NCBI GenBank assembly: GCA_964030475.1
Contig: CAXIPT010000050.1
Coordinates: 62,001-126,000 of the forward strand
Direction: 5' to 3'
Source: Tethya wilhelma
Taxonomy: Eukaryota > Porifera > Demospongiae > Tethyida > Tethyidae
Length of the DNA stretch: 64,000 nucleotides
Both the position numbers and the translations under genes were made by a program. Shown here piece by piece: positions 26,120 through 60,627 of the stretch. The notes under the pieces were generated by a model. The model saw only the letters and a program-made list of their open reading frames with translations. It was not told the origin of the DNA and searched no databases. Position 1 is the stretch's first letter; every line of letters begins with the position of its first letter.

Positions 26120-26215
26120 TATTAGAATGTAATTTTGATTGCATCATTATAAATTTTATTTATAGACATCCGCTGGGCGGGGCGATTCAACACGTGGAGC
26201 GAGCCTAAAATTAAA

Positions 26216-26374
26216 ATGGCAACTAGAGCAGATCCAAATCAAATCAAGACAGAAAGTCCGTTCACCAGTGAGCCAAAGGGTTCCACTGAGGAAGAAACTT
26301 CAGACTCTATTCAATATACAACATTTGTGAAGAATTTTCCTCGTCTTGTGAATGCCTTGAAGTGTTTTGTATTT
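26216..26374 (+). pseudogene. Truncated start of the CARD-like gene
   Basis: An ATG with about 50 codons nearly identical to 26547 onward, then a break at about 26372 into the second repeat unit and an immediate stop. It keeps the promoter but encodes only the first helices. Confidence 0.7.
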
Positions 26375-26506
26375 TAGTTCTTGGATGTATTTTGATTGTT
26401 GGAATTATTGTTAGTCTTTGTTTGTATTTGTGTTGGAAGATTTGTTGTTAGTATTAGAATGTAATTTTGATTGCATCATTATAAATTTTATTTATAGACA
26501 TCCGCT

Positions 26507-26528
26507 GGGCGGGGCTAATCAACACGTG
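26507..26528. promoter_or_regulatory. GC-box (GGGCGGGG) and E-box (CACGTG) before the CARD-like gene
   Basis: Both motifs lie 19-40 bp upstream of the ATG at 26547 and are also present in the duplicated promoter at about 26176-26197. Role is inferred from consensus only. Confidence 0.4.
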
Positions 26529-26546
26529 GAGCGAGCCTAAAATAAA

Positions 26547-32263: not shown

Positions 32264-33198
32264 TATCGATCTACCGCCTTGTCATGTTGAGTACTCTGTA
32301 ACTCTGACTACAATGGCCCCTATTGTGTGTTTGGCCGAAATACTTATATACCAGGAAGTGAATTATTGATACCATGTATGTACCCATGCTACAATCATAG
32401 TTGAGTAACACAGTTGTACAGAGTAAAGTATAAATTTTGTATGCATATGTGTATTGTGTGAAAAGATTGCACTTAAGAACTAATTTTTACTTCCTATATA
32501 ATGTTCATGAAAAATTAAACCACAGGATTAATAATTTTTATACAGTTTTTTTTATTAAAATGTGTACTAAATTTTATAGACATGACATTGTAAAATTAGA
32601 ACATAAAACTGCGGATGCTCTACTAAAGTTTCTACTCAGCAAACATTGATGATGTCTAAAATTAATCACAATATACACATGTGTCAATCCAGTTAGTTTG
32701 TCAATTAACTGTAATTATAATATTATATTGGGGGTTCCAGAAAATTTTATTTCATGGTTTAGCTCGAAACAGTAAACACCTTTCAGAGCAAATACTGACT
32801 GGACATCATTACAGCATATGCTATATAGCATGCATGCAATCATGCTTGGTCAGCTTGGATCAGCACATGTATACATGCATCCAGTTGTGCCAGCCTTGCC
32901 AAATTAACAATTATTCCCTAGACATTAAATTGTGGTGTTTGTGCAGTGTGTGTACAATCATAGGCTATAATAGTTTGTTTGTGCATTGTTTTCCAAACTA
33001 ATGATAATCAATGGACAATACAAATATTCATAGTTTGTGCACTGCATGAAAATAAATACAATTATGATCTATTTGACATGAATATTTATACTTTTTCTAC
33101 TTGTACCTCATAAATATTATATAAAATGTCAGATGACAGACATGTGACTATAGCTTTGAATAATTATAGTCAATCTTAAAACCTAATATCTGATATAT

Positions 33199-34938
33199 AT
33201 GATCAAGATGGTAGCAAAGCAGAGCCTGTTACCAGCTGTACTTGCATTTGTGTCACTCTATGTCAATCATGTGGGAGCCCAATTCCCTCCCCCTCCGACC
33301 TCAGCTGCTCTGGGGGTCGAAGTGGGATCAAGACCCCCCGCCTTCTGTGATGTAGTGAAGGACTCACGACCCTTCATCGACGAACAAGGCAATGCTGTTG
33401 CCGTGGACGATAATGGATGGCCTAAAGCCGATGGAAAGATGGTGGTGTTTGACCTTCGACCTGCCTTTGCTTGGAAACCACCCATTGATGACCCAGAGAA
33501 AAAAATCCCCATGAATCTAGATGGTGTTTGGAAACTTACGTTTTCTGGAATAGCAAATGTTTCTGTAGCTGACAGCTCCTTCAGTGGCACCATCGCTAAC
33601 GTTCAGTTTGACAACAGCACCAATGTGACGACTGCAGACATTAACTATCCCAAAGGGGAAGCACTGATGGTGTTGTACTTCAACAACACACAACGTACAC
33701 CCTCAGATCCTGTGGGAAGTGGTCTGGTGAACATATCCATCATAGCACCTTACTGCGATCAGAAGAATCCGACCGTATTCACACCAGCCTTTATCAAAGC
33801 GTTGGAACCTTTCGACCACATGCGATTCATGGGTATACTCGGTACCAACTATCAAGCTGGTTACTATGGTGATAAGGGTAATCACATTATTAGTTGGGAT
33901 CAACGAAGCTTCCCCAACGATTCAGTTCAACACGACTGGACGGATTTGAGACTCGGAAAACACGGTTGGGCTTGGGAATACGTCATTCTTTTGGCGAACC
34001 AAGTCAATAAGGATATATGGATAAACATACCCATTTCTGCTAGCGGATGCATGCCATATCCGGAGCCAAACTGTGAACAAGATACTAGCTCCTACATATA
34101 CCAACTTGCTCTTCTCTTGAAGAGTGGAAACGAGTTCACAGGCAAAAAAGGTCTCAACAATAACTTGAAGATTTACATAGAGCACAGCAATGAGGTGTGG
34201 AACTTTGGATTCAGTCAGTATACATGGAACAAGCTGAATGCTGTAGATAGGGTAAAACAGAATCCTAATATCGCCATAGCAATGAACTCTACGGACCAGG
34301 AGGTCTGGGCAAGACGTAACCATTACATGAGGTTGAAAGAAATTGGCAAAATATTCTCGTCTGTATTTGGCTCCTCTGCTTACAATCGAAAGATATTTCT
34401 TATTTTTGGCGAATGGACAATCTTTCCACAACACTACGATACAGTGCTGAACTGGGCCAATATGGCATTTGGCATAGCTCCTAACAAGTACTTGTACGCA
34501 ATTGCCCAGACCCACTATTTCAGCGACAGTGATGCACCTTCAAATGCCAATGTTGAGCAAATCATTGCTGCCATCAAGAACAGCAGTGACACAGGCTACA
34601 TCAACACACTTGCTATAGGTGAGATTGCTAGTGTTTGGGGGCTCAAACTAGCTGCTTACGAAGCAGGTCCTGGTATGAAAGTTGGCAATACGACAAATAT
34701 TGGAAATCGGATCGAAGCTCAACGAAATGCAGCAATAAAGCAAGTCGTCATTGATGATGTGCTCAAGAATTGGTTTGGGCTGCCTCGTCCTGGTGATATA
34801 TACAACTATTTTTCCCTGAGTGGTGCTTATTCTCGTTATGGATGTTGGGGTGCCACGGATGATATTGCTGACTTGAGCACACCTAAGTATCAAGCCATAA
34901 TGAAGATCACCAAGACCCTGAAAGCAAGAGGAAAATAA
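33199..34938 (+). CDS. Secreted glycoside-hydrolase-like protein, intronless, 579 aa
   Basis: A 28-residue signal peptide (hydrophobic LLPAVLAFVSLYV, probable cleavage after HVGA) precedes a Pro-rich start. Residues about 70-200 are beta-rich. About 200-579 look like a TIM-barrel hydrolase: FDHMRFMGILGTN, WEYVILLANQVNKDIWINIP, and YIEHSNEVWNFGF with an Asn331-Glu332 pair typical of clan GH-A acid/base sites. Candidate nucleophiles are Glu405 (IFGEW) and Glu475 (AIGEI). Sequons (NVS, NDS, NTT) fit secretion. From memory the WEY...SNEVWN pattern resembles large bacterial cellulose-binding or GH-like proteins. The absence of introns in an intron-rich neighbourhood supports retroposition or horizontal gain. 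The minus-strand ORFs inside are shadows. Confidence 0.7.
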   Translation: MIKMVAKQSLLPAVLAFVSLYVNHVGAQFPPPPTSAALGVEVGSRPPAFCDVVKDSRPFIDEQGNAVAVDDNGWPKADGKMVVFDLRPAFAWKPPIDDPEKKIPMNLDGVWKLTFSGIANVSVADSSFSGTIANVQFDNSTNVTTADINYPKGEALMVLYFNNTQRTPSDPVGSGLVNISIIAPYCDQKNPTVFTPAFIKALEPFDHMRFMGILGTNYQAGYYGDKGNHIISWDQRSFPNDSVQHDWTDLRLGKHGWAWEYVILLANQVNKDIWINIPISASGCMPYPEPNCEQDTSSYIYQLALLLKSGNEFTGKKGLNNNLKIYIEHSNEVWNFGFSQYTWNKLNAVDRVKQNPNIAIAMNSTDQEVWARRNHYMRLKEIGKIFSSVFGSSAYNRKIFLIFGEWTIFPQHYDTVLNWANMAFGIAPNKYLYAIAQTHYFSDSDAPSNANVEQIIAAIKNSSDTGYINTLAIGEIASVWGLKLAAYEAGPGMKVGNTTNIGNRIEAQRNAAIKQVVIDDVLKNWFGLPRPGDIYNYFSLSGAYSRYGCWGATDDIADLSTPKYQAIMKITKTLKARGK

Positions 34939-37302: not shown

Positions 37303-40300
37303 ATGAGTGACTATGAATCCAGTAGCGAGTATAATCCTTCAACCACAGTACAAAGGAGAAGAGGAACTCAACGACGACTAGAGCAGTGCAGTGAAGGTAT
37401 TGTGTAACTTGAACTGCATGTTGCTTCTCTTGTTGTCATCATAGTTGTAATGATCACATAAACTGTGTGGTGTACAAGATACTGAAAGAGAGTCTGGTAT
37501 TGTAAACAACGTGACTTGTATATGATGAAATGGAGTGGTAGCCTTATAATAGCATTATACACAAGTGTACAAAGTGGGAAATGCCTTCTTGGCTTACAGA
37601 CACGAATGACAAAGTGAACCAGTGCCTTACTGTTCTGTCAAAACTCAAAACTAGTTTGTGAATTGTACCACACCCCAAGTTTCAAGTTACATATAGAGAT
37701 ATGAATAATAATTTTGCACAATGTCTATTGCAAAGGTATACATTATGATTTTTGTTAGTAATAATATTATTAAGGAAAAAAAAAATACAGTAGTAAATCT
37801 ACTAATTCATATATATTATGCCCAAATAACCAAGTAAGCCACGTGATCTTTATATGCCCCATCCTAAAATCAGCAGAGGTGGGAGCTGCTAATTCTCAAG
37901 AGTTCCTAAAATAATTGATTACCAAAATTTAATATTGATATTTCAACCCAACCGTGAATATTGTACCTGTAGACATGCTTACACAAGTTATACTAGACTT
38001 TAAGATTGATTCAATATGGTTCACATTGCATTTTTGATTGTATTGCTCCTACAGATGTGGATAATGGTCAAGATCCTCTGCTTCAACAATTCCGTAGAAG
38101 TAAACGTGAGCTACGTGTATTTTTTTATGCTGCTGTGTCCTAGTGTTGCTGTTGTACTGAAGATTAATTTGCCATACTACATGGGCACATGCTATGTATT
38201 TCCTTATGTCTGTACTATCTAATTATTTTACTCTACTTGGACTTTCTATGTGTTTATAGATCACTTAAACAATTCGGAATTTCCTCAACTCCAAAGTAAG
38301 ATAATATTTACTGTGTGTTTATGAACACTATATGAATTGTGTAACATGAAACCCTTGTCATTTTGTCCATTCCTGTCCCTTATAATACAATTGCCTTTCT
38401 ATTTAGCATCCATATGAATGCCAGATGGTATCATATTGTGCCATGGTATCATTGGGCATATGTAGCTAAAGTTTGTCTAAACGCATGTATCGCCAGATAC
38501 ATTTAGATACATTTAGACATCATTATTTTTCTCATAACCATACAGTGACCATAAGAATTCATAGCCTCGTTCCCAGGCTCCTCCCTCACATATATTTTCT
38601 TCGAAAGTAAGGAGACAGAGAGCTTGGTACAAATTATCACGTGAGTGACGCAAGGTAGACGTGGCCTAGGTCAGCGATTTTTCCCCATCATCTCAGCCCA
38701 CGCCCACTTTGTTTCTTTCACTCTTGTAAAGCCTTTGGTAAGGGAGCTAGCTGTAGATGCTACATTATTATGACCCATTATTGCTATTTTGTTGAAACTC
38801 ACCCTGTATTGACCAAAATTTTTCGTATCCAGAAATCGCCCATCATTTTTTAGAGCACAAACGGTTACAACACGCTGTCAAAGCATCTTTCATAGTTGAG
38901 CAATCACTAAAACAATTTCTCAGATTGTAGATAACAAAACCTGAAGCCTGTCTGTTGTTCTTTTCGACTCTTGGGCCTCTAGGAGCAACAAAGCTAGTTC
39001 GCGGAAACACACGGTAAAAGGCTTACGTAATTGCTCATTGAAAAAATCCAAGCACGTCATTGATTGCATCACTCTCGTGATAAAATGTACCAAGCTCTCT
39101 CTCTCTCTCTCTCCTTGTTTTTGAAGAAAATATACGCGAAGGAGGAGCCTGGGAACGAGGCTAAAGAATTCATATAACATTTCTGTGGTGAATTTGTATG
39201 GTTTACTTTACCAGTTTTCCATGTTCGTTTTTTGTAGGTGTTCATCTACAACTAGCAAAGGAACCTAGACCTGCCACTGCCAAAGAAGAGGGTATGTTTA
39301 GAGTATGTGTTGCTATGGTTTTAAAGTGAAAGTTGCCATAAGGACTTTGTTGTTATAGTACAAGACATAGTGTTGTATTGATTATCTGCAAAGATTATTG
39401 TCTTAGTTCTTGGAGTTATCATCAGTACTCTTGTGTACACAGTACACCATGCAACCACACCACTACATAATAGTATTTCTTTTTCTTTTACAGGTCAAAG
39501 ACTGATAGAGGGTGCACTCAGCAGGGACCCTGATTCAAAACAGTTTGCCCTGGTTGTGATCGGTAAAGAATTGCCTGAAAATGTCAAACAAACACACAGC
39601 ACTGTCTCTTGGGCAAAAATTAATGGGGAAGAAACAGAAAGAATTTTGGATGATGCTTTCGCCTTCCTGGGTTCAGCTAGACTGATTCTTCATAACCCTA
39701 CTGTTGAGCTGCTGATATCTGTCATTGCCTTGCTTCTCGATTACCTTCGTAGAAAGAGCAAAGGGCGTGTTACTACCTACTTCATGGGACACAGTGTTAA
39801 TGGAAGATTCTTCCTCGAAAATGGATCTATCAACATTGCTGATGAAGTCATCACAAAATTCAATAACTGTTCGACAAAAATGGATCAAAAAAATCAGAAT
39901 GATCAGGAATTACAAAATTTCCATTATATCGATTGCTGTCGAATTGGAGAATATTTCTCTTTTCCTGCCAACTGCCTCAAGGGAGATGCTGCAGTTATCT
40001 ATTCAACACAGCCGGGTCAAATTGCCTACACTGGAGAGCTTGAGGGTGTACAACAGGATATCGCGAGAGGATCGTGGGCCAGTGATGGAGTTGGTGTGTT
40101 CACAAGAGAGTTTGCACAGTTGATCAAGACTCATGATGGAAACTTTGAAGAATTTGCTTTTGAGTTGCGCCGTAGGACGAAGGACAAGTTGGAGGAATTG
40201 GACCCAGAATTGAAAACGGATGTCTGTCGAGTAATAACACACTCCACCAACATTCAAAGGATAAATTTCAAGGAAGAAAAAGAGAATGCCAGTAAGAATT

Positions 40301-40817
40301 TATACCACAAGGCATGCATGCGTAAACTATTCATTTTCATTTCTGAGTTGCAATGAGCTTAATATTCTTAATCACATGGAATCCTATGTAATATAATATT
40401 ATATAAGTTGTTTATCAAGTATATACCGTATAGCTAGAAATCTTCGAGGAATAAAATTTTTGCGGAAAGGCGATTGCCAAACTTTTCGCGATTTTTTAAT
40501 TTTCGAGGATCGAGCAGCCCCACCCATATATTGCAATGCGATCCTGAAAATTTCGCGGGTAAAATTTTCGCAGATCGGCCGTGATCCGCGAAAACAGCGA
40601 AATTTATACTCCTCGAAAATTTCTAGCTATACGGTATGCCTTAATTGTGTGGAATTAGTGTGTTCAGGTGGTTAGTGAGCCTTTTACGTACCTGGCATTT
40701 TTCAATGTTTACATGCCTATTGGGTAACATAAGGAAGTTGTGTTGATAATGGCATATGATGTGTGATGAAACACCTTATTGCATGTACATGTATATTATG
40801 TGTTGTAAAAGTGGTTC

Positions 40818-40851
<34 letters not shown>

Positions 40852-42930
40852 GTGAGTCCTAGTGATCTTGAAGCTCAACTCAACGACAATGGCTACTCTG
40901 CTACTTTGACAGTTCAACAACCACCTGGTTTAGTCACTGACCACAGATATTCAGTACAGACCCACAGACCTCAAATATGCAGACAAGGCAGTGATCAGTG
41001 GGAAGATATTGGGGGAAAGTTTAGAGTTACATTCACTTCTGGAAAAACACAAGCTTGTGTATACAGAGTAGAACTTACACAAAATGTGACCCTGTTTGGC
41101 AGTACGGTGAAGTTCAGGATACTGGCTGAGACTGGAGACCCATTCACCAAGCTCTACAGCAAACCCATCTCTGTGGAACTACCTCCAATGAGTATGTGTC
41201 TACACTTACTAAGTATCATTTACTGTTCTTTCTTCAATACAAGCCTAGTTGCTGTAGCTAGGTAGAATAGACTTCCAATTACATCTTTGAACCTTTCTTA
41301 CTTATGATTGTGCTATAAGTACGGCATGCCACTAGTTATTGTCTGTTGCAATTAATTTTATTTGTTGTTACTATTCTCCCCATTACAGCTCTACCAGTGT
41401 TGAAATTAGAAAGCAGTCAAGAGCGCCGTCCATTTCTCGCGAAAACAACAACTGTATCTTGGAGTGACATCCAACCTCCAGCTACTTCCAAGCAGAACCT
41501 GGCTGAAGACACCAACCATCCTGCATCTCTGCCCAATTTTGATGGCTACAGTGTTAAGGTTTACAAGCGACACGAAGAACTACAAGACTGTAATGAAGAG
41601 ATTGATACAAAACGATTGCAGATTGAGATTGATCAAGAGAAACGCACGGCATCATTCAAGACTGGACCAGGAGAATATGAGGTGTGTGTCATTGCTAATT
41701 TTGAAGGAGGAGAATCAGTGGCAAGTGAATTGGAAAAAGTTGTTGTCAAAAAACGTAAGTATATAAATTTCAATAGCCATGTACTACGTACAGTTCAGAC
41801 AGTATGATGTTTTCCAAATAATGCCTACTTTGTATGTAAGATAATGTTTATTTGTTATAACCATGTACTGTACCTAATGCTTAGAGCTACAGTAGCTTAT
41901 TCTGTTTTTTGTTGTTGTTGTTGTTTTGTTTTATTCAGCTCGCTGCACGTATTGTGGTTTGTTTTCATTGGTATTTCTACTCCTCCTCTTCTTTCTGGCA
42001 CTGACTGCCTTCTTAGCAGTAGCTCTGATACCTACGCCACTCTATCGTACACAACTCTATGGAAATGACGTCGTTGAATGTGCCGACAGCAGTCCATTCA
42101 TAATCCGCTTTCTATATTCAACCTGGAAGTTTACCGAGTGTCCGAATCCTCTAGAGTCCGCTTACAATGACATCAATGCAACTGTGATACCAATCAATGG
42201 AGGGAAAAAAGGAGAAGTGTTCGAAATTGTATCAAAAAATGGAACATTCTCCTCAGGGCAATACCCCTTGCCTTATCCGTCCATAGAGCCTACTTACGTG
42301 TTTGACAGATACCTTGTACAGGATTCAACAGTCAACTTTGAGTTGTGTGCAACCACAAAGCAGTCAAGCTCCTCTCCTATTGTTATCGAACTCTTTGAAA
42401 ATTTCACTGACTTTGCAAGTTTCGTACGTACAGGAAGCGAGAGAAACATTCTTGAAACATTTCAAGTTTTTCTTACACAGACTGATGATGTTTGTCAAAA
42501 CATTTCGTACTTAGTTAAAGAATCAACCTACCTCTATTTTGCATTTTACACCCCTGTTGATATCTCGATGAATATAACCACGGTGCTTGGTGAAAGGAAA
42601 TACCTAAACTCAAGTGGAAGTTGGAAGTACAAGATACGCCAAGAAACTGGTGCCGTAAGTGTCCCGATAAGTTTATTCAAGAGAGAAACAGTTCTCTGTT
42701 ACAGTAACACCATCAACTATGGTAGAGATCGTACCCACATCTGTGCTACTCCATCACTAGGACCTGTGGCACTGACTGCAATTGGGTTGCTGTGGTTGGT
42801 TGTCTCGGTGACTGTGGTTGGCTGTTACTGCTGCTGCACTGGGAAATGCAAGAGGAACAAGAAAACTAGTAGAGCTAGATATGGTAGAGGCAACTATAGA
42901 AGATTACCCAATACCACCGTGCAAGTGTAA
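37303..42930 (+). CDS. Membrane-anchored caspase-like protein A, 8 exons, 909 aa
   Basis: Exons 37303-37396, 38055-38105, 38260-38295, 39238-39291, 39494-40291, 40853-41191, 41389-41754, 41939-42930; all seven introns are phase 1. Residues 1-78 are a flexible tail built from mini-exons. Residues 79-344 are a caspase-like (C14) domain with His178 and Cys227 as the likely dyad. Two Fn3/Ig-like domains span 345-579. TM1 is about 584-608, a glycosylated ectodomain about 610-850, TM2 about 853-879, and a basic 30-residue tail ends TTVQV. The lack of a signal peptide puts the caspase part in the cytosol. Expected role is ligand- or membrane-controlled proteolysis; this is inferred. The small exons between 36950 and 37300 are probably 5' UTR (a donor at about 37031). 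Confidence 0.72.
38564..39161. repeat. MITE family 1 (598 bp), TA flanks
   Basis: TIRs GCCTCGTTCCCAGGCTCCTC and GAGCCTGGGAACGAGGC with TA on both sides. It lies in intron 3 of the caspase-like gene A. A (CT)n run interrupts its right subterminal part. Confidence 0.75.
39494..40291 (+). CDS. Caspase-like domain exon of gene A
   Basis: One exon encodes the whole 266-residue domain. Core strands: FALVVIGK, ARLILHNP, VTTYFMGHSVNG with the catalytic-type His (codon 39790), FHYIDCCRIGE with the Cys before Arg (codon 39937), AAVIYSTQPGQIAYTG, and WASDGVGVFTREFAQLI near the C-terminus. The H...DCCR layout fits the caspase/paracaspase fold. The His is followed by Ser-Val where the other two genes have a Gly. 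No p20/p10 linker with Asp-rich sites is obvious. Confidence 0.75.
40424..40636. repeat. MITE family 3 (about 213 bp)
   Basis: Inverted ends TACCGTATAGCTAGAAAT and ATTTCTAGCTATACGGTA enclose imperfectly palindromic AAATTTTCGCGGA-type sequence. In the intron after the caspase exon. A related element is at 56838 and a fragment at about 14890. Confidence 0.75.
40822..40852 (+). repeat. (CA)n microsatellite forming a splice acceptor
   Basis: The CA run ends in CACAG, which is the acceptor of the first Fn3-like exon (exon start 40853). It occupies the position where a pyrimidine tract is expected. Confidence 0.7.
40853..41754 (+). CDS. Two Fn3/Ig-like exons of caspase-like gene A
   Basis: Exons 40853-41191 (113 aa) and 41389-41754 (122 aa), both phase 1/1. 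The second shows the usual beta-sandwich features: TTTVSWSDI, YSVKVYKRH, ASFKTGPGEYEVCVIANFE. They match the two domains of gene B (46241-46570 and 47833-48165) in order, size and phase. Their place on the caspase side of TM1 implies a cytosolic location, unusual for Fn3-type domains. Confidence 0.6.
41939..42930 (+). CDS. TM1-ectodomain-TM2 exon of caspase-like gene A
   Basis: 330 residues. RCTYC precedes TM1 (LFSLVFLLLLFFLALTAFLA). The loop has six sequons (NAT, NGT, NFT, NIS, NIT, NSS) and shares YLYFAFYTPVDISMNITT and ETVLCYS...DRTHIC with gene B (YLYFALVVPINTTLTVT, EVVLCRT...DRTHIC). TM2 (ALTAIGLLWLVVSVTVVGCY) leads into Cys-rich and Lys/Arg-rich residues that fix the tail inside. Confidence 0.75.
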
Positions 42931-43228
42931 TATTACTTGAGAAATCGTCACTTCGGATTCTGCAGCGAGCCTATGCATATGTTCGAACTGCACTGCTGCT
43001 GACAACTCAACATGTAATACAGATGACAACTGTTTTAATGCATACTGATATTTAGGTCTAGATGTAAATACTAGTCTCCTAATATCAACTACATAATAGC
43101 TATAATTATACTGTGGTTTTTGTTCAAATAATTTATGGTACATTGTTAGCCTCGTACCCCTGCGTTTAAAAAAATTAAACTTGTGGTAGTTACTAGTACA
43201 TTGTATAATTATCTATACTATCAATCAT

Positions 43229-43634
43229 GATAACGCTGACGCAACTAATTACGTAATTATTATTTTATAACTTCACTGATGAGTGTGTCGTGCGAGGCAA
43301 GCAAACATCCGCGCACATACCACGCTCAATCCGCGCAGTTGCATTGTTGAGGTGACATCTATTGTCTCAGTGACTGCATGTGGTTGGCTGTTATTGGCTT
43401 ATTACTGCTGCACTAGGAAGAGCAAATCTAGAAGGACTAAGAAGACTAGTTGAGCTAGATATGGTAGAGCCAACTATAGATTACCCAATACCACTGTGCA
43501 AGTGTATTACTGAAGTTTATAGTATGTAATACCCAATGCATCTGCGCGGATGTTTGCTTGCCTAGCTCGCGCGACACACCCATCAGGTGATAATTACGTA
43601 ATAATAATTTTAGCTGCGTCAGCATGCTGAGGTA
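43229..43634. repeat. Inverted-repeat element enclosing a copied gene fragment
   Basis: Arms of about 85-95 bp (GCTGACGCAACTAATTACGT ... GGCAAGCAAACATCCGCGCA on the left, its reverse complement at 43537-43634 on the right, about 80% identical) surround 43375-43510. That interior is a degenerate copy of the 3' end of gene A (TM2 and tail, compare 42805-42932) in the same orientation. Confidence 0.7.
43375..43510 (+). pseudogene. Captured fragment of caspase-like gene A 3' end
   Basis: It matches GTCTCGGTGACTGTGGTTGG through the end of the reading frame of gene A with substitutions and a TGA replacing an Arg codon in the tail (ACTAGTTGAGCTAGATATGG). It has no start and no splice partner, so it is non-coding. 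Confidence 0.75.
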
Positions 43635-43789
43635 TATGTATATAGGTCCCCGCAACAACTGCACAACAACTGAGCCGCTAGCTTGACAGACATCCGAATG
43701 TGATGTCCACTCAGGACAGAAGCTTTCTCCTTTGGCTTTGTCCTTACACTACTGAAGAAGTGGAAGCTTTCTAGTAAAATTAGCTAGTT

Positions 43790-44592
43790 ATGGACTCTGA
43801 CTCGGAGCTATCTATGATGCGAGGTGCTGTAGTTGGTGTTGCCACGGCTACTGTTGGTGCACAGGATGATATCGCATCAAAACGTAAGTTCCAACTTTAT
43901 TTATACACTGTCATTCACAGGCAGGTTCCCTTTTAGTGAGCAAAAATCACAGGCCCGGAGCCTCCTCAGGATGAGTGATACGGCCTGCATATCGCCGCCG
44001 AAGGCGGTGACTCAAGCTAGGGGGGTCTGGGGGCATGCCTCCCCAGAAAAAAATTTGCGTTTTGCACGTTTTTAGGTGCACGTTTTTAGGTGAATTCTGG
44101 GGCATTTTGAGGCATATTTCAGTCTTAGTTTCCAACGCTTCAGTCTTATAGATTTACTGACTTGATTCTGCTGAGATAGAGTTAGTGAGGATGACTGGCT
44201 TAGCAGAATACAGTCTGCTCAAGACATGTACATTCAAGCGTATTGCTAAGTACATTCAATAAGCTATAGCGCTAATAGTTTTAGCTACGTAGAATAAGTG
44301 GGAGGGGCTACCGAAAGAGGGTGTAACAGGTGTGCGTTAACAAGAGAATTAAAGTGAAAACGACTCTGAGCGTGTACGTAGCTTGTAGCTGTTGAAAGCT
44401 TCTAATTTACACAGCACAAAAAGAGCAGCATGAAAGTAAAGTAAGATCTTTTGCTTTTAAGAAGCTTAATCTTCCAAAATAGGTACGGCCATGGCCTTAG
44501 CTGCCGCACCTATGCCGCCGGCCCTGAATCACTAAGTTGAAAATGGTGCCTTGTCACGGTACAGAGAGTTGCTGAGAGTAGTCATTTGTCTA

Positions 44593-44631
<39 letters not shown>

Positions 44632-47600
44632 GATTGATAATATCTCTAGAGAGGCAGTTTTTCAGAATTCTTAGAAACCCATTGTCACTGATGAGATGTT
44701 ATGCTTTTAGAAGCTATAGGTTATTAAAACTCAGAATTCTATAATAATTATAAAGTTTTTTTTATGTGTGTTCTAAATGCAGTAAGTTTTGCATGAGGTC
44801 ACGCCTATTGATCTAGCAATAGACATGTATAATGCATTTATTAATCCTCAGCATGTGTACATAACATGTCCAGAGGAACATCCTCACCATCCTTCCATGT
44901 AGGATCATTTCCAGGCTCTCTCCCTATACACACTGAAATAGGAAGGGAAATATTCGAGAGCCTGGTACGTGAAATCACATAAAAGACGTTGTCCGTAGAT
45001 AGACATTAAAAAGAGTTTTTATGGTTTCTCTACTAGTCTAAGAGCAATTAAGTAATTTTTCTACATGCTACGTCATTTACGTGATTTCATGTACCAGGCT
45101 CTCTCCCTTTCTTGTAAAATTTTTTTTGATGAGCTGGCCAAAAAAGGGGGGTTCGTCCGAACCAAACCAACTACCCCTGGATCCGCCACTGTAAAGTGCA
45201 TTATGGACAGCATTAAGCACACATATAATTATATAAGATGATTCAGGTTTATGCTTGGTTGCTAGAGCTACTGGGTAGTATTATTATACATGTACATATA
45301 TATAGATGATAATGGATTTGTTTTCTTATCCATAGTTGCTCGAAGAATGCTTCATGATGCTCGCAAGAGTAACGTTTACTCTGATGAATTAGATTTCATT
45401 GTCATCTGTGGAAAGTTTCCAAGTGATGAGTTATTGGGCTTTCTAAAAATTTCTCAGCAACGATTGGCGCATATTGATCAAACTAAAGTTGAAAACCTCC
45501 TAAAAAGCACCTGTAAACCGAGGGGAGTAGCTAGTTTGATTCTACTCAACCCTAGTATTGAGTTGTTTAATGCTGTCATGGATGAGATTGTAATGTGTCT
45601 TGCTAATAATCATCAAAAGTGGTATCGTCGGCTCAGTACGTACTTCGTTGGTCACGGTGCTCGTGGTTTTGTCTGTATCAATGACAAAGACACTATCGAA
45701 ATCAATGAAGTTATTAAAAGGTTGAATATGCCAAAACTACGGGAGATTCAACGCATTCTTTATTTTGAATGTTGTCGTTCAGGAGAAGAATCTTCCATTG
45801 AATATCCTGAGGAAGGTAATGTAGCTATCTTCTATGCTACACATCCTGGTAAGATATCTTACACCGGAAAGAAGGATGGCATAAGTGGCACGAGTGATGG
45901 CATTCCTATTTTCACAAGAGTGTTCTGTGAACTGGTAAAGACGTTTGAAGGTAGTTTTGAAGAGTTTGCCTGTGAGTTGAGCAGACTAACTGAAGTTGAA
46001 TTGAAAAATCAAGACTCAGATGAGTGTCAGCAGCCAATACTAGTATCCCACAACACTATTACCGGCAAGGAAGTGAATCTTGTAAACAAAAGATATCATC
46101 ACTGTGAGTTTTTTTATTTGTTGTTTGTCTAATAGTATGCATGTCAAAAGCATCATTGTAGTGATCCTCGTTACTTCTCAGTTTTCTTGTGTGCATAACT
46201 AATTTTTATTTCAGTATCATTCACTGATTTAATTTTGCAGTTCAACCACGAAACGTCAATGTTGAGACGCTGAAATCACATTCTCTAAGTGAAAATTTCA
46301 AAGTCACTTGGGAACTCGATCTCCCTACCCCTCCCCGCTTGCCTATTCTTGATGACATCCCTGTAATCCCCCCGCCTACATTGAAATCCCTCACTCTGGA
46401 GATGAAGTATGGAGAAAACTGGCAAATACTAATGGAAGTTGACCCACCAGAAAACAAAGAAGCTGTATTTTCACTTCCGTGTGGTGGAAAGTATTTGATT
46501 CGCTTGGCAGCTTATTTTGAAGAGATTGAAGGACCGGTCTATAGCGAAACTAGAGAAGTGTTCTCTGAATGTAAGTAATTTCAATTAATGCCCACTATAA
46601 CCACCCTCGATCGGCCTTGAGTTGTATTATATATACTGCAGGGTGCTTCTATTTTATTTGTAGATAGTGGTCGACCAACCAGATTGACTATTGTCACAGT
46701 CTTAACAGTGGTTGGTAAATAACGTACTGTCTGGCCATTATGATAACTGACAGCTGACTGACTTGTTACCTCTTTATACTTATATGTTATAAGCCTCGGT
46801 TCTGTGTGCTTGCCATTCTGTTTGCACATTGTCAAGTGATTCGCCTATCAACCAATTAAGCAACTTATTAATAATTAACCTTCCACTCTATTGACCAGTT
46901 TACAATTAACAAAGACATTGGGGGACGTATCAACACTTCGAAAAGTGTTAGAGATCAATTTTTGATATGTAATAGTTATAGTCCGTTCGAGCGGAATTTA
47001 CGTTGCCATAATTCTGCTCGAATGGACTATAGATCCCATCACTGATTGGTCTACGAGCGGCGCGCACTACTGATTTGCCTAGAAACAGGCTGATGTTTAT
47101 TGTCGTTTTCATTTTTTCAGAAAGAACAGAAGATAAAAATACTATATACCTGCTTTCTATCCGTCATTAATTTTTAGCAATGCCAAAGTCCACCACTGTA
47201 TTACGACCAGGAAGACGTAAGAGGTAGGCTCCTCCCTTGTCCAGAAAAAGCGCTCGAGCATGAGCAAACTTCAACGTATCCAGAAAACTAATCTCTGCTT
47301 GTTTCAGAATAAGTGTGGCTTAGTTTCAATAGCCTACGCTAAGCCAAAAACAGTTGACAGTAAACTCTCTTTCAGAAGTAGCGCGTGGTGCAGATTCGTT
47401 TTGTAATAGTCCAAGGTTCAAGTTTGCAAACCCAACCCACTTGTTAATAATGGCTTCAAATTCAATGCTCTACAGTATTCCAAAGGAACATTGTGTATAA
47501 ATTTTTATCCATGCATCGTGTCACTATAGGCTTGTGTAGAGCTAGTTTGAAAATTGTTTCCAAGGAAGATAATTTTTATTCCTACATGGATGTACAAGCT

Positions 47601-50600
47601 ATATCAAGCCAACAAGCAGAAATCATTTGAATATGCAAATTACTACCCTGAGGGTGGAATTATGGCCATAACCACCCTGCTATTTTGTCAGAGGGTTGGA
47701 ATTATGAGCCATAACCACCACTTCCATATGGGAGAAAATGTATTAGATGGGATTTATGTATGCACATAAACATAAACAGTATAAAAATATCCTTGTATAC
47801 TTACATACACACACATGTACATGTACACATAGTGAAACCTGTACTACATGTAAATCTTGACCAGAAATGGTTGCCTCCCTGCAAGAATATTGTCAAAGTC
47901 TCTTGGACCCACACCCTCCCTCCTGCTCCTGTTGATGATGGCTCTAACGTAGCTCAGCTAGAGGAGTATATCGTAAAGACCAAACTCAGGAGTGGTGACA
48001 ACCAGTGGGAGACTCCTAAAGGAATTCAAGTTAACAGGGACAATAAGGAGGCATTGTTTCAGCTTCAAACACCTGGGGAGTATGATGTGCGAGTCTTGGT
48101 AGGATTCAGTGAAGCAACTAAAGAACCTGTGTACAGTGAGGTGGAACAAATCGAGGTTCCGAAACGTAAGTGAAATTTTGCTTACATCAGGAGCTTAAAT
48201 AATAATATAAATACTAGGGTACACATGGTACAAATCCTCGCTCAGCGTGCACGCCTTTTTCTTTTGTTTTCAAGTATTTAGAACAAAGTCAGGGTCTTCA
48301 ATTTCGAAAACGCAAATCAGCTCATTTTGGGGAAAGCCGGCTAGAAGCAGAAATCTGACTTATAAAGCAAACTCGATGAGTTTTACATCCATAGCAAATC
48401 TATACTACCAGTTTTTTAGAGCTAAATTGAAGTAAAGAGAAGTTAGAATTCAGTCTTGGGTTGTCAATTTTGAAAACTAAAATCAGGTGATTCGTGCTGG
48501 CGTCGAGACAACCAGCTGGAAGCAGAATTTTGATTTATACAGAGAACGTAGACAGTCCTACCTTAGATGTAAGTGAGCACACGAAGTTATTCCGTCTGAA
48601 CTTGAAGCTAGAGCGACTTAGAGGGACTTTCAAATTTTGCCCAAACACACCACCACCACCACCACCACCACTTTTCTCTGAAACCTGAAACCTTAGAGTT
48701 TTAAGTGTGCATTATGCAAGCTACTTAGGCTTATAATAACAGCTGACCACGTATTATTAGGTGGTATTATTAGGCGAGTAACAGTAATATGGGCAGTAAT
48801 TGGTACAACGTATAAACAAAAAACGTCAGAGAATAGGAAAAAAATCATAACTTTTATTTTAGTAACAAAACATTGCTTAGAATAGTGACACAGTTCCTTT
48901 AATTACCAGTTTACTATGGATACTTGGCGATATGTACAGTACAGGACTACTGGTTTACAGTACACATTCTATAGCAAAGTGGTTTACATTACTACACATG
49001 GTGTATATGTCTTACCTGAGTTAGCACTCACTTTTCTGTGAATAACTCACAAACAGAAAATGCAAATTGGACAGGACTTGGACGAATCTGCTCAGCTCTC
49101 CAGCCCAAACAAAATATATAAAAACGCTTTGCTGCTCTTCTTGAAACTTGGAGAAACAAAACTCACCATACAAAGCAATGCGAGCCGTTTAGCATTCTTT
49201 CTAATTAACGCTGCTCTCACCTTTGAATCATGTGACATTTACTAGAGCATCCGTAGAGCTCACGTGCACTTTGTTTATCCTGCTGCATATTCTTCGCATT
49301 CATCACATGGACGGTCAACCAGATGGACTACTCAGCTCAGACAGAGTATAGTGAAGTGGTTTGTATACCATGAGGAGATATGATACGAGCAACCATTTGC
49401 CAGCTCAGCAAAGGCGCACTTGTATCGTACCTCCTCTAGGTTTGTACATTGCTTGTACCTTTTAGTGATATTCCTTACAGTTTATTCCGCAAAAATTTGT
49501 ACCCTGACCTATAAATTGTTAGTGTCACGGTCGGTCACTTACATTAAAATCAATGCACTCACCAGAATATTGGGGGGAGCCTGAATATATCATGCACAGG
49601 CATGCAGCTGTATCACTCACAAACTGACCACGGTTGTAATTGTTTGTGCAGAGGAGCAAAATATGTATACAAACCACTCCAAGCTTTCTCACATAAACAC
49701 AATATCAATTAATTCGGGGCCTTAATGATGTACTGTACATGTCGCCAAGCTAGTATCTATAGATCTATAAATCTAACCCAAGTTCAGTTCATTCAACAAA
49801 AATGAATTTTGTAGTTCATATAATGCTGTCTTTCAGGTTAAAAATAGTAAATAAACACAAAATAGAGGTGGTACACTGACTGTTACAATAACACCCCAAT
49901 AAAGGACATACCCTGAATAACAGACACCGGGCTGTGTCTTAAGGGTCCGCAATTCGGAGAGTCTACTGTACATATACACATGCATACTAGCTAGCACACG
50001 CATGCATGCAGAATGGTATTGGCTTTAATAATTATTTGTTACTATATATACACAAACTTTCCTCAGGCTCGCCGCGGGCATCATTTTGATCCCACTAGTT
50101 TTGTATGATTAATTTTGTATGTGTCATCATCAAGTTATTAATTCCTGTAGGTTGTTCTAATTGGTGGTGTTGTCTTTCTGTGATACTTCTGCCCCTGTTC
50201 TTCTCTGTCGTCGGGTTTGGTCTAGTAGCGGGATTGTTGAAGGGTAACCCAACAAAGGTCACTTATTTCCAGATGTATGAGGATAGCACCATTGAGACCT
50301 CAAATAGCTTGTCATCTCTCGATCGTTACTTGTACTCTTCTTGGAATTTAAGTGAATGTCCTATTCCTCCTGAAAATCCCTACAACAACATCTTTTGTGC
50401 TGTTTTTCAAGAGAATGAAGTCACCAAGTATCAAAGCAATTTTAGTGACTCTAATACTGCTACCTGTCAGTTTAAGGCTAATGATCGTTACATACTGTAC
50501 CCATTTAGAAGAAATATGTGTGCTGGAAATGATTGGCCGAACACTCTCACAGAGATCTATATGGCCAAAGGTTCCACAGCTTACTTTGAACTCAAGCTTT

Positions 50601-51208
50601 CTTTATTTCTTCAGCACACAAACTTGCTATCTTCTAAAGTGTACATCTTCTACAACTACAATGACTTTAACAACTTTGTTCTCTCAGGAAAAAAAATTAA
50701 TGTGGTGAAGATGCTTATCCCATCTGAGTCTGTCTCTGATAGAAAACCACCGGTGGTTCTCTTCAAGTACACGGTTCAGAAATCGTCCTATTTGTATTTT
50801 GCCCTCGTTGTTCCCATTAATACCACTCTCACTGTCACTTCAAATCTTGTGATATGGCAATACAATGAAGACTGGGGCAACAGAATTGAGTATCAGATCG
50901 ATAAAGAGAGTAATACAACAATCCCTATTGACAGGAATCATGGAGAGGTAGTATTGTGTCGTACTCCTGCTGCTATGGCAGATCGTACTCATATCTGTGT
51001 CACAGGTGTATCTGGGAAGTTTATTCTTATGATTGGGGGTGGTGTGTTTGCTGGGATAGTTTTTATTATTGTCACGGTGTGTGTTTGTGTTATAGTTCTA
51101 TTTTTAAAAGCTAAACTATGTAAGAGGTGTACAACCTGTGGTATTGGAGGAGATGATGACTCTAATCATGAAGGAGATCTTTTATTACCACCCTGTGATG
51201 ATAACTGA
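43790..51208 (+). CDS. Membrane-anchored caspase-like protein B, 5 exons, 860 aa
   Basis: Exons 43790-43883, 45336-46103, 46241-46570, 47833-48165 and 50151-51208; all four introns are phase 1. Residues 1-31 are a short acidic/Ala tail. The caspase-like domain covers 32-287 (His138, Cys178), two Fn3/Ig-like domains 288-508, TM1 about 515-540, ectodomain to about 795, TM2 about 797-829, and an acidic tail with DDDSN and PPCDDN follows. A 39-nt phase-1/1 candidate exon (47178-47216) could add 13 residues between the Fn3 domains. Same architecture as gene A, 860 bp downstream in the same orientation, so tandem duplication is likely. The tails differ strongly (basic in A, acidic in B), suggesting different cytosolic partners. 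Confidence 0.72.
43946..44524. repeat. Probable DNA-element copy in intron 1 of gene B
   Basis: The left end (TCACAGGCCCGGAGCCTC) and the reverse complement of the right end (GCCGCACCTATGCCGCCGGCCCTGAATCA) are weakly inverted. The interior contains AGGGGGGTCTGGGGGCATGC, which I recall from dispersed invertebrate repeats. Boundaries and class are uncertain. Confidence 0.35.
44584..44632. repeat. (GTCT)n microsatellite
   Basis: About eleven tetranucleotide units in intron 1 of gene B. Confidence 0.9.
44908..45112. repeat. MITE family 1 relative, degraded
   Basis: CCAGGCTCTCTCCCTATACA on the left and GTACCAGGCTCTCTCCCTTT on the right surround an inverted GTGAAATCACATAAA/ACGTGATTTCATGTAC pair. 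The outermost TIRs are worn. The following sequence to 45190 includes a CTGGATCCGCCACTG-type repeat fragment. Confidence 0.5.
45336..46103 (+). CDS. Caspase-like domain exon of gene B
   Basis: 256 residues, phase 1/1. It begins ARRMLHDARKSNVYSDEL, nearly shared with gene C. The active-site elements are STYFVGHGARG with a GHG His (codon 45653) and ILYFECCRSGEE with Cys before Arg (codon 45773). NVAIFYATHPGKISYTG and GTSDGIPIFTRVFCELV follow. Both dyad residues are present, so activity is plausible. Confidence 0.78.
46982..47028. repeat. Short perfect-type hairpin in gene B intron 3
   Basis: TATAGTCCGTTCGAGCGGAA pairs with TTCTGCTCGAATGGACTATA around a short loop. Possibly a solo end-to-end remnant of a palindromic element. 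Confidence 0.6.
47178..47216 (+). CDS. Candidate 39-nt cassette exon of gene B
   Basis: A TTTTTAG acceptor and an AGAC/GTAAGA donor bound 39 nt, which is phase 1 in and phase 1 out, and would insert 13 residues (MPKSTTVLRPGR core) without changing the frame. Gene A lacks a counterpart here. It could also be chance. Confidence 0.3.
48815..48897. repeat. MITE family 2, half element
   Basis: It matches the right half of the element at 11791 (AAAAAACGTCA..., TTTATTTTAGTAACAAAACA, AGTGACACAGTTCC). No left arm is visible. The rest of the 48166-50150 intron has no recognised feature apart from a (CCA)n run near 48650. Confidence 0.65.
50151..51208 (+). CDS. TM1-ectodomain-TM2 exon of caspase-like gene B
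   Basis: A CSNWWCC cysteine cluster precedes TM1 (LSVILLPLFFSVVGFGLVAG). The loop has sequons (NLS, NFS, two NTT) and shares YLYSSWNLSECPIPPENPYN with the YSTWKFTECPNPLESAYN of gene A. The DRTHIC motif lies just before TM2 (GGGVFAGIVFIIVTVCVCVI). The tail has CKRCTTC and is acidic at the end. Confidence 0.75.
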
Positions 51209-56000: not shown

Positions 56001-59000
56001 AGGTATTTTGGGCATTTTTTGATTTAGTTTAGTTGCTATTTTGGCCAACACTTTATGATTTAGTTTTAGTTAGTTAAAAAAAGGCCATTTTTGCTAAAAC
56101 TAAAAGGGTTTTAGTTTTAGTTATAGTTAACTAAAACAACACTGGTATATACACACATAAAATTAATACTTAGTCTAATGAGCAGTTTTGTATACCATCT
56201 GCTCAAAGTTTGCTGTAATTTTGATGATATGTATGGTCAATCCGAGTTATAGAGAAAAAAAAAATGAAGCTAAGGTGAATACAAATCGATTTCAGCTCTG
56301 TAATGTAACTATTTCCGCAAACTTACGTTAGAGTACAAGTTCAAATTTCTCTATTGCCTTTCATTTGTATCGAAAACATGCTATTTTGGCTTACACATCT
56401 ACCAGACAGTAACTATTGTATACCCACTTGATTTCTCTTTAGTATTTTCGAGAAGTTGTCAGTATTGCTGCATGAGTATGTAATGTACATTTGTACGTAC
56501 TAAGTCTTGATCACTATTTTTCAAAATGATTTATTTTACAGCTCCCCTAGTGCTGCCTGCAAATACTTACAGACCGGTTATATCAAAGCAGAGTGCAACT
56601 AAAAGTGCTACTTTGAAAGGTACAGCTATATTTTACATCCAGTCTATTAACACACTCATATCATGGTGTATACTGATGCGCTGTCAAAATTAGCCTCGTA
56701 TGTACCCAGGCCCCACTCTCCTTATTTTTCAAGTAGGGAGTGCTGTCAAGTTATCATAACAGTATGTACTATGTGTGCACTCAAGGCGTCTATTCTGAGC
56801 CTTTTCGAGCCTTTGCTTTGAGGCCATGCCTCTTGATCTACCATATAGTTAGAATTTTTTGAGGAGTAATATTTTCTTGGAAAGGTGATTGCAAAACTTT
56901 TTTCAATTTTATTTTCGAGGATAGAGCATGCAGCCCCATCCCATATACAATACTTAATTTTTTTTCATTTTTCCCGGATTGCTGGCAATCCACCACAACA
57001 GCAGAATTTATCCTGCTTCAAAATTACTAGATATACGGTAGACATATGATATTGTGCATTATATCTAGAATCCTGTTAATTTATATCCGAAGACTGGTGG
57101 TCGAATGCTTATATGCTCTTAAAGTTTATCATTAATTTTCACTTGTTAGTATAGTAAATGTATTTTATAAGTTATATTTTTCCATTATTTCAGCAAATTG
57201 AAAACGGGCTGACATTAGACTATCACATGAAGACTTAAAAGGTACAGGGGCAGATAGAGGAGGTGGGCTGCGGGGGGTTGTAGCTCTCCCCCTTTAGCCA
57301 GAAAATAGTACACAAATTTTACCACAAAAAAAAGTAGAAAACCAATTGTCAATGATGGATTCTTACATGTAATATATAATTTAAAAGAGAATTTAGGTGA
57401 TAACTGGAGCACATATATAATAAGAAATAGGGAGAAGGGGAGAGTAGCCTCGTTCCCAGGCTCCTCCCTTGCAAATATTTCCTACGAAAATAAGGAGGGA
57501 GAGAGCCTGGTATCAAATATCACGTGTGTGATGTAGGCATTTTGAATATTCATTTGTATGTGAATGTCTTGTTGCGGTCTTGTACCGGTAAACCACTAAG
57601 CTCTCGACTCTCTCATGGCTCTCCTCTGTTGACTGTCTGTTCATCATCGCTGCCAAATTCGACAAGGTAGCTATGGCGTTATGTAAGTTTATGTCTACAC
57701 TGTAGGGTTTATTCAATATTACCATGTGTATTTCATGTAGAGCCCTGGTAGGCATGTTCTAACCAACTTGTATTATAGCACTTCTGAGTTCTCACTACTT
57801 TCTCTCCAGTTTTGAGTATAGTGTAGGTTCAAGCAGAATCTTAAGCACTAGAGTTCTTTTTTCACTGGATAGTTCTTGGCTTTTTTCATGTGCTGTGTAT
57901 ATTCCACCGGATTTCCTGTAGAATATCAAGGTATTTCCGTGTGGTTGAACGTCAGTATCTACAACTGATATTTCCCTGTCAGCACCTTTGAAAGTATGGC
58001 TTCCTATGATACAAAAATAGTAATGCAACTCCCGCGATTCTCCCTCCTCCCCTTCTCCCTTTTTTTCTCGTTATGCACTCCTTGTGATAAAATAAGCCTA
58101 GAAAGTATACGGTGGAACCTCCGAACAATGGTATTGTCTAGAGACAAGCTTCTTCACTTTTGTAAAGAGGTTGCCCTTCTTGAAAGGTTTTGCTTAAATA
58201 CTGGCCTAGGATTTGATGTTTTTTTAGGAACTGTGTCACTATATAAGCACTGTTTTGTTATTAAGAATAAAATGTGTGACGTTTTATGATGTTCTATGAG
58301 CTTTTGTTACATTTTTTGTTTTGTTTCTAGCGCAATTTGGGTACCAATTCCAGCTACTAGCTCCATGTACATGTGTATAAATTATGCACATCATCAACAA
58401 AAAAGTCACAAAACGTCACACATTTTATTTTTGAGTGTTGTCAGTAGAGAAGTGCCACTTATAGAGGTTTTTATGTAGGGTATATGGAATAAATTCTATT
58501 TCACGCATTGTGCCCATTGTAGAGAGTCTGGCTGTTGTTTGGAGGCCCGTTATAGAGGTTCCACAGTAGATTTGTACTTGCACAAAACAGCTAGTCAGCT
58601 AGTGACAGCTACCTAGTGTGAGTGTTAAAGTAGCCATGTATGTTGATCATCTGGCTTTCTTTTATCTCTATAGAAGCTCGAAAAAAGATTCATGATGCCC
58701 GTAAGGGGAATCTTTACTCTGATCAATTTTTACTTGCTGTCGTCAATGGAAAGCCGCCAGATGAAGCTACTCTGAGTGATCTGGAGATCACTGATACAAG
58801 TAGGTGGGCACAGATTGATGATACTGCAGTCTGCAACCTCCTAAATGAGATTTATGATGAGATGGGAGTGGCAAGACTGATTCTGGTCAACCCTACTATC
58901 GAGGAGCTTCTTGCTGTCATGAAAGTGATCCCGGAGTGTCTTGATTCGAAATGGTATCGTCGGTTCTGTACCTACTTCATCAGTCACGGAGCTTGTGGTT

Positions 59001-59426
59001 GCGTCTTCATAGGTGCTGCAGATCGTCTCAACATCGTTACTGATATTGTTCAAGAGTTTCGCACTCTCAACATGCAATGTGTTCACTACTTTGACTGTTG
59101 TCGAATATACGATGAGGCATTTAATTGTCCATTGGATAATGCAGCAGTCATCTATGCCACCCAGCCTTACCAGATTTCTCACACAGGAATAAAGAATGGT
59201 CAAAGTGGAACCAGTGATGGAGTCACTATCTTCACAAGGATGTTTGCTGAATTGATAAAGACTCACGAGGGAAATTTGCACGATTTTTTCTCTGAATTGG
59301 CCACTCGGATCGAAGCTAAATTGAAGGAATTGGCACCTGATTTGCAAACGGAAAAGTGTCGTCCATTATTGTGCACTGGTCCTATTACACATGAGGTGAA
59401 TTTCAAGAAAGAAAGATACTATCACT
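53081..59426 (+). CDS. Caspase-like protein C, 3' part missing (6 exons found)
   Basis: Exons 53081-53096, 53221-53259, 53371-53403, 55790-55840, 56542-56619 and 58674-59426; all junctions are phase 1. The ATG context is strong (TACC ATG G). Residues 1-72 come from five mini-exons and are flexible, comparable with gene A. Residues 73-323 are the caspase-like domain (His177, Cys215). The last exon ends with a proper donor (CACT/GTGAGT), so more exons are expected. No Fn3 or membrane exons were found in 59427-60626, and the sequence then meets an N. The remainder is therefore either in the unassembled gap or lost. Confidence 0.65.
53629..54022. repeat. MITE family 1 variant (394 bp), TA flanks
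   Basis: GCCTCATTCCCAGGCTCTCA on the left and the inverse of GGGAACGCGGC on the right, TA on both sides, with a long inner stem (CTTTGACCTTACACTCACGG and its complement). In an intron of gene C. Confidence 0.7.
54616..55249. repeat. MITE family 4 (634 bp), TA flanks
   Basis: Inverted ends GTCTCAAGTAGCCAGACCCC and GGGGTCTGGCTACGTGAGAC, continuing inward through TCCGCCTATATGG and GCATGCTAAACTTGTGCAGA stems. TA on both sides. No coding capacity. A degraded tandem piece follows to about 55330. Confidence 0.75.
55638..55760. other. Intron sequence, nothing recognised
   Basis: From 55330 to the exon at 55790 there is AT-rich intronic DNA without a supported feature. Confidence 0.5.
55838..56150. 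repeat. Foldback element made of TTTTAGTTAACTAAAA repeats
   Basis: Outer arms GGTATATACCAATGTTGTTT and AAACAACACTGGTATATAC enclose many short TTTAGTT/AACTAAA palindromes. The left arm begins at the donor of the exon ending at 55840, so the element abuts the splice site. Confidence 0.65.
56838..57041. repeat. MITE family 3, second copy (about 204 bp)
   Basis: TACCATATAGTTAGAATTTT on the left pairs with AAAATTACTAGATATACGGTA on the right. More diverged than the copy at 40424. In the last intron before the caspase exon of gene C. Confidence 0.6.
57447..57565. repeat. MITE family 1, left half only
   Basis: GCCTCGTTCCCAGGCTCCTC after a TA, followed by the usual GAGGGAGAGAGCCTGG and ATCACGTG motifs. 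The right terminus is absent; 57566-58220 shows no other recognised feature. Confidence 0.65.
58227..58445. repeat. MITE family 2, third copy
   Basis: GGAACTGTGTCACTATATAA at the left and an AAAACGTCACACATTTTATT-type right arm. It is followed by a repeat of the AACCTC/GGTTCC type up to 58565. Confidence 0.65.
58674..59426 (+). CDS. Caspase-like domain exon of gene C
   Basis: 251 residues beginning ARKKIHDARKGNLYSDQF. CTYFISHGACG has the classical SHG histidine (codon 58985) and VHYFDCCRIYDE the Cys (codon 59099). AAVIYATQPYQISHTG and GTSDGVTIFTRMFAELIKTH follow. Closest by eye to gene B. The dyad is intact. Confidence 0.78.
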
Positions 59427-59492
59427 GTGAGTTTTATTGTCAATTGTGTGTGACCAAAAACCATCACAATTAATCAACATAATTTATTAATA

Positions 59493-60202: not shown

Positions 60203-60626
60203 GTATAAGTCTATGCTAAGACCGAACAGATGGATGCTAAATCAAACTTGAAACTCAATGACGAGGAACTGTGCTGTTGAGGAGACAAAGTACGGTCCAA
60301 AAGACTCCAAACAAAGGTGAATTTCTGCCAATATAGATTGTGGTGTACCACAAGGTAGCTGGCTTGCAGCCTAATGTTAGTAGAAATGACAAAAAGTTTA
60401 GCATTGTACGAGATGTATAGTTTTTCACTTGAAAGTCAGTCTTGAGAAGTGGCTTCAGAATCAAACTGTATCTGCTGTTTGTTATCAGTGGCTTAGTTAC
60501 CATCCTATTTGTACTGCATGTGATCAATTTCCAGTTGTTAAATGACTGTGTGTAATGTACCTAACAAGATAAAGAGCATGTAATTGGATAGCACTGCCCA
60601 CTTTCCTTCTTACTGTAACCACTGCT

Positions 60627-60627
60627 N
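60627..60627. other. Ambiguous base at an apparent assembly join
   Basis: Homology to the GH-like gene starts at the very next base, in the middle of the coding sequence, and the preceding 1.2 kb has no relation to that gene. The N probably hides a gap of unknown length or a misjoin. Confidence 0.7.

Follow-up and report, generated by a model that had tools for sequence, protein, structure and literature searches.

Predicted two-pass membrane proteins with a caspase-like domain in the demosponge Tethya wilhelma

Introduction

In MALT1, a single-chain caspase-like domain has beta-sandwich neighbours, and the plant APD1-4 RING E3 ligases (PF16040/PF16041) follow a layout of transmembrane segment (TM), loop, TM and RING. 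The accessible parts of the literature describe the amphioxus TNFR-caspase Brafl1_82667 as a predicted animal transmembrane caspase with complementary DNA support and a proposed shortcut (PMC2575513), and Acropora caspase-X as another odd animal caspase (PMC4715348). As far as the accessible texts go, type 1 paracaspases have a death domain and Ig domains at the N-terminus; type 2 paracaspases, which are reported from Porifera, have no domain besides the protease (PMC5978004); and a wide occurrence of TM domains is described for prokaryotic orthocaspases and type-I metacaspases (PMC10896300). Here, a 64,000-nucleotide stretch of Tethya wilhelma DNA (the window; positions 62001-126000 of contig C50, CAXIPT010000050.1; genome 124.6 Mb) was analysed for two genes, gene 1 and gene 2, which are predicted to join a caspase-like domain to a two-pass membrane part.

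An earlier note had proposed this architecture and had set it against animal caspases that were taken to be soluble. The caspase-fold domain in a two-pass membrane protein was upheld; the premise was not, as the amphioxus TNFR-caspase is, in the accessible part of its report, already an animal transmembrane caspase (PMC2575513).

Results

Gene 1 (37303-42930, eight exons, 909 amino acids) and gene 2 (43790-51208, five exons, 860 amino acids) were each modelled as one open frame free of internal stops; their introns are GT-AG and in phase 1 throughout (7/7 in gene 1, 4/4 in gene 2), in agreement with the two complete genes claimed in the earlier note. Its exon joins 40291/40853, 41191/41389 and 41754/41939 are used in the gene 1 model and recur in a further copy on contig C49 (the C49 copy). 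At the level of the gene models, the presence of caspase-like, module and two-pass membrane exons in both genes was confirmed (Table 1).

The caspase-like assignment was borne out by Pfam, hhalign and the predicted structure. Pfam C14 matched the caspase exon of gene 1 just below the cut-off (E 2.8e-4, 21.1 bits, cut-off 21.4) and gene 2 above it (28.1 bits); gene 2, unlike the gene 1 exon, appears in the genome's list of 54 C14 matches. The dyad motifs align in the hhalign comparison of the family with caspases of the same genome, and all 50 fold matches listed for the predicted structure are caspase entries. The aligned family members (6/6) all have the catalytic His and, of the CC pair, the second Cys, so the dyad is intact as claimed. 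About 79 residues lie ahead of the caspase exon in gene 1 and 32 in gene 2.

Around this dyad the sequence diverges from canonical caspases. DCCR or ECCR stands in place of QACxG in 6/6 members. The Arg of the W-R motif is an S1 pocket residue that confers Asp specificity; W-R was found in 5/5 own-genome caspases compared, and the corresponding position in the family holds T in five members and V in one. The distance from Cys to Y(A/S)T is 18-21 residues in the family, compared with 46-49 in the own-genome caspases L001-L004 and 35 in L007, and by this spacing no long cleavable intersubunit linker was found in the family. The own-genome comparison covered five of eight caspase loci (L001-L004 and L007, with L005, L006 and L008 left out because no frame of theirs passed the filter), and the His of L007, wrongly picked by the motif search, was ignored. 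The lost S1 Arg speaks against cleavage after Asp, should the domain cleave at all, and the missing linker against processing into p20 and p10. The family has a caspase fold and a His/Cys dyad; its active site departs from that of canonical caspases, and in gene 1 its function may be impaired.

The two Fn3/Ig-like domains proposed earlier were recovered in part. One module group (profile A10) matched Fn3 domains in the Protein Data Bank (PDB; E 0.0049 and 0.0056); Pfam found no Fn3 in any module of the two genes, and no fold was assigned to the first module of gene 1.

Two strong hydropathy (KD) peaks agree with the proposed order of TM, ectodomain and TM in gene 1 (592-610 and 856-874), gene 2 (516-534 and 807-825) and the C49 copy in a five-exon model (510-528 and 774-792); a third peak of gene 1 (1.95) falls within the caspase domain. 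The loop sequons of the earlier note were also recovered, with 15 in the three loops (about 745 residues) and 6 in the longer three N-terminal parts (about 1615 residues). No N-terminal hydrophobic peak was found in genes 1 and 2 by KD scan, and each of the two TMs has basic residues on its outer side, which makes an N-terminus inside the natural reading. Sequon placement, hydropathy and basic flanks would all fit a protease inside and a loop outside, with a probable surface location and glycosylation. The tail after the second TM is about 35 residues long in genes 1 and 2.

The AF2 model of the ectodomain has a beta-rich unit between two helices (pTM 0.40), whose fold matches are common beta-sandwiches only, and two loop cysteine columns are kept in 8/8 ectodomains. 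For six members, no TNFR and no significant Pfam match was obtained, and APD1-4_N/_M were not listed. A likeness to the APD1-4 ectodomain is suggested by the alignment of the ectodomain profile with eight of the genome's PF16041-matching exons (hhalign 92.6%, E 4.4e-7, 180 columns), and remote kinship is to be regarded as suggestive. PF16041 has 13 matches in the genome, and APD1-4-like frame clusters with hydrophobic stretches occur on contigs C11, C1 and C8 (L048-L051).

Own-genome exon searches score the best candidates only and copy counts are lower bounds. The caspase exon of gene 1 was found in at least five places and its ectodomain exon in at least ten. The ten include a decayed remnant of the end of the last exon of gene 1, at 43310-43504 shortly downstream of the gene. 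In gene 1, gene 2 and the C49 copy, which account for three of the five caspase-exon sites, the caspase exon is succeeded by two module exons and then by a TM-ectodomain-TM exon.

The C49 copy keeps the junctions, including the acceptor behind a CA repeat, and its frame is open over five exons. Its DNA identity to gene 1 is 72% in the caspase exon (62% at the amino acid level), 68% and 71% in the modules and 83% in the ectodomain. Ratios of nonsynonymous to synonymous substitution (dN/dS) between the two are about 0.25 for the caspase exon (0.253/1.020), 0.46 for module 1 (0.353/0.766), 0.25 for module 2 (0.249/0.980) and 0.23 for the ectodomain (0.121/0.528), and these exons are under purifying selection. 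Intron identities are 0.72, 0.59 and 0.53 (shuffled 0.47, 0.49 and 0.46); intron decay makes an imperfect argument because the first intron spans CA repeats.

Further copies are partial. In copy E, a caspase exon and an exon for the first module are followed by less than 0.9 kb to the contig end, in which nothing further was found. The ectodomains on C1 and C6 are clear relatives by profile (hhalign 97.8%), and this pair aligned with the APD1-4-like exons at 69.3%. One of the ectodomain loci on contig C23 carries a long N gap. A frame that looks protein-kinase-like by eye (L038:1334-2254) lies downstream of a C23 ectodomain exon and is probably a separate gene.

Relatives were detected in a second source (a database of size 5.77 billion; matches P0001-P0003). 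Among 8000 candidates scored, the ectodomain-exon profile matched two proteins with 51 and 53% identity to gene 1 (E 3.4e-87 and 6.2e-84); among 4157, the caspase-exon profile matched one with 38% identity to gene 2 (E 3.1e-96). For each of the three, the longest contig is given as 2,066,014 bases, which makes physical linkage of the caspase and ectodomain matches likely. On visual comparison, the caspase protein is similar to gene 1 as far as the donor and not in the letters beyond; the window rows of this alignment (A5) end at splice sites and cannot show where the likeness stops.

A sibling architecture may lie upstream in the window, at 22247-26119, where an exon resembling a death-effector domain (DED; E 5e-4, under the Pfam cut-off) is joined in frame to a TM-ectodomain-TM exon. 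The latter aligned with the caspase-family profile at hhalign 31% and with the APD set at 2%, at best a remote kinship. This would be a possible death-effector membrane receptor, and two-pass ectodomains may be backed by caspase-like units in some genes and by a DED-like unit in another within the same 64 kb.

Among the other contents of the window, a long single frame at 26547-28019 has a start that we take by eye to be CARD- or death-fold-like, with no Pfam match passed; its 5' end overlaps a 332-base tandem repeat (26039-26370 and 26371-26701, 97% identical). The gene at 33187-34938 has a large frame, looks secreted by eye and has no Pfam match. It is partly copied at 60573-61652 (98.8% identity over 341 residues), in the would-be intron of copy D. 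A segment of 1784 bases, including part of a Kelch-repeat gene, occurs twice at 100% identity (12400-14183 and 20549-22332), either through very recent duplication or through assembly redundancy.

Table 1. Exons and related features in the window (positions count from its first nucleotide).
Feature	Position	Strand	Remarks
Gene 1 exon 1	37303..37396	+	ATG; GT donor, phase 1; without hydrophobic N-terminal stretch (KD scan)
Gene 1 exon 2	38055..38105	+	AG/GT, phase 1
Gene 1 exon 3	38260..38295	+	AG/GT, phase 1
Gene 1 exon 4	39238..39291	+	AG/GT, phase 1; C49 copy has a similar short exon upstream of its caspase exon
Gene 1 caspase-like exon	39494..40291	+	Dyad His in GHS, Cys in DCCRI; Pfam C14 below cut-off, hhalign
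Gene 1 first beta-like module, no fold assignment	40853..41191	+	Kept in C49 copy (54%) and copy E; no Pfam
Gene 1 second module, Fn3-like	41389..41754	+	Profile A10 vs PDB Fn3 domains, E about 0.005
Gene 1 TM1, ectodomain, TM2, tail, stop	41939..42930	+	KD peaks 2.99 and 2.35; six loop sequons; AF2 model
Gene 2 exon 1	43790..43883	+	ATG, GT donor, phase 1
Gene 2 caspase-like exon	45336..46103	+	GHG, ECCRS
Gene 2 first Fn3-like module	46241..46570	+	Profile A10 member
Gene 2 second Fn3-like module	47833..48165	+	Profile A10 member
Gene 2 TM1, ectodomain, TM2, tail, stop	50151..51208	+	KD peaks 2.48 and 3.29; four loop sequons; 30% identity to gene 1 ectodomain
Copy D caspase-like exon	58676..59426	+	44% identity to gene 2; donor GTGAGT kept at 59427
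DED-like exon, two short exons, TM-ectodomain-TM exon	22247-22928, 24079-24129, 24707-24748, 25074-26119	+	In frame, 3/3 introns phase 1

Discussion

We lean towards reading these genes as a tandem animal family of N-inside two-pass receptors with a built-in single-chain caspase-like protease. Exon structure, domain order, caspase fold, dyad, TM-loop-TM arrangement and recurrence in copies can be read from the sequence as modelled. On the cytosolic side, the protease would be followed by two beta-sandwich (Fn3-like) spacers and the first TM; outside, a glycosylated, beta-rich and remotely APD1-4-like ectodomain would lead into the second TM and a short Cys/basic cytosolic tail. A ligand, or contact with another surface, would cluster the ectodomains, upon which the caspase-like domains would come together under the membrane, dimerise and cut nearby substrates, not after Asp. 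Activation by proximity and the substrates are what we infer for such a layout, and the adaptor-free link of outside sensing to proteolysis that had been proposed earlier would be plausible.

Several observations weigh against this reading. Both genes are predicted from genomic sequence, and a poly(A)-like AATAAA lies at 40450, within the intron that follows the caspase exon of gene 1. The GHG found in five of six members is replaced by GHS in gene 1. Structure prediction, which the earlier note had suggested, gave caspase fold matches and a beta-rich loop between helices, but the mean pLDDT was 59.7 for each model, with values below 50 in the stretch that contains the modelled catalytic Cys (residue 146). 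Three sequons fall in the tails, placed inside by the proposed topology. The partial gene duplicate at 60573-61652 splits copy D from its presumed Fn3-like and ectodomain exons beyond the window, and five ectodomain exons (three on C23, one each on C1 and C6) have no detected caspase exon among the best candidates scored. A full-length search of the second source gave no match at E 1 or better, as expected if that source holds exon-wise predictions.

The alternatives were weighed separately and their likelihoods are not mutually exclusive. The main rival, strongest for gene 1, is that the membrane protein is real and its caspase-like domain a pseudoprotease or scaffold that binds caspases or other partners at the membrane, as c-FLIP does for caspase-8. 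The GHS of gene 1 and the loss of the S1 Arg and QACxG in 6/6 members speak for such a role. The retention of His and Cys in 6/6 members and of GHG in 5/6 speaks against it, as does the purifying selection seen when gene 1 is compared with the C49 copy, and the scaffold is the less likely explanation.

It is improbable that the caspase-like exon belongs to one gene and the Fn3/membrane exons to another, or that mostly a truncated soluble caspase is made through intron retention or early poly(A) addition. The AATAAA and the ectodomain exons lacking a detected caspase exon would agree with this, as would the symmetrical 1-1 internal exons, whose skipping leaves the frame intact. Against it, the gaps from caspase exon to membrane exon in gene 1 are 561, 197 and 184 bases with matching phase-1 junctions that are kept in the C49 copy (first gap 108 bases), and the same order occurs in three complete copies.

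A lumenal or extracellular legumain-like protease of reverse topology appears very improbable. Legumains are the best matches of the caspase profile in the PDB (E 9e-4, alongside caspases and chance matches up to E 1), and gene 2 scores 20.3 bits with Pfam C13 (legumain; cut-off 22.8; gene 1 not listed), but C14 comes first for gene 2, the listed fold matches are all caspases, and the missing hydrophobic N-terminus, the crowding of sequons in the loop and the basic outer flanks of the TMs oppose that topology. An assembly or gene-model artefact, for which near-identical duplications on the contig and a single N inside one of them could be cited, is hardly credible, as frames, junctions and selection agree between divergent copies and relatives occur in a second source.

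Beyond the proposed caspase receptors, a wider animal receptor class can be put forward tentatively, in which APD-like two-pass ectodomains would have been combined with different cell-death modules on the inner side by phase-1 exon shuffling, one subclass receiving a caspase-like protease and another a DED-like unit. Such receptors would be tandem, diversifying and able to trigger proteolysis directly, possibly in microbe or self/non-self recognition.

Should the gene models prove correct, a caspase-fold protease would have been fused directly to a surface receptor in an animal lineage, in a manner unlike that of the amphioxus TNFR-caspase, the one animal case found in print. The reach of adaptor-free receptor proteases in animals, the action of single-chain caspases without Asp specificity at membranes and the reuse of a plant-E3-ligase-type ectodomain as an animal receptor part would then become testable.

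Comparison with known systems

In searches of the open PMC literature, which leaves out subscription papers and most preprints, no listed paper describes the exact layout in its title or the start of its abstract. With metazoan caspases (C14), including L001-L004 and L007, the family has in common the fold, the His/Cys dyad and the p20 and p10 elements, and differs by the absence of QACxG and W-R, a shorter distance from Cys to Y(A/S)T and the predicted membrane tether. It resembles paracaspases, such as MALT1, in its single-chain caspase-like domain beside beta-sandwich units; unlike type 1 paracaspases, it has too few residues before the caspase for both a death domain and Ig domains, and its Fn3-like modules come after. 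In the accessible part of PMC5978004, no membrane part is described for type 1 or type 2.

The ectodomain profile resembles own-genome exons matching PF16041, without a direct significant Pfam match. In contrast to APD1-4, the family has an N-terminal caspase, and its tails, at about 35 residues, leave no room for a RING, whose size is given as 40-60 residues in the accessible part of PMC6118397. The combination of a caspase-fold protease with a membrane anchor is shared with prokaryotic orthocaspases and type-I metacaspases as accessibly described, and is here predicted for an animal gene with a two-pass loop. The amphioxus TNFR-caspase, as far as its accessible description goes, is likewise one transmembrane protein with an outer receptor part and an intracellular caspase domain, an arrangement predicted here from gene models. 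It has a TNFR ectodomain and a QACXG caspase, whereas the family from T. wilhelma would have a two-pass beta-rich ectodomain, DCCR or ECCR without the S1 Arg, an N-terminal protease and Fn3-like spacers.

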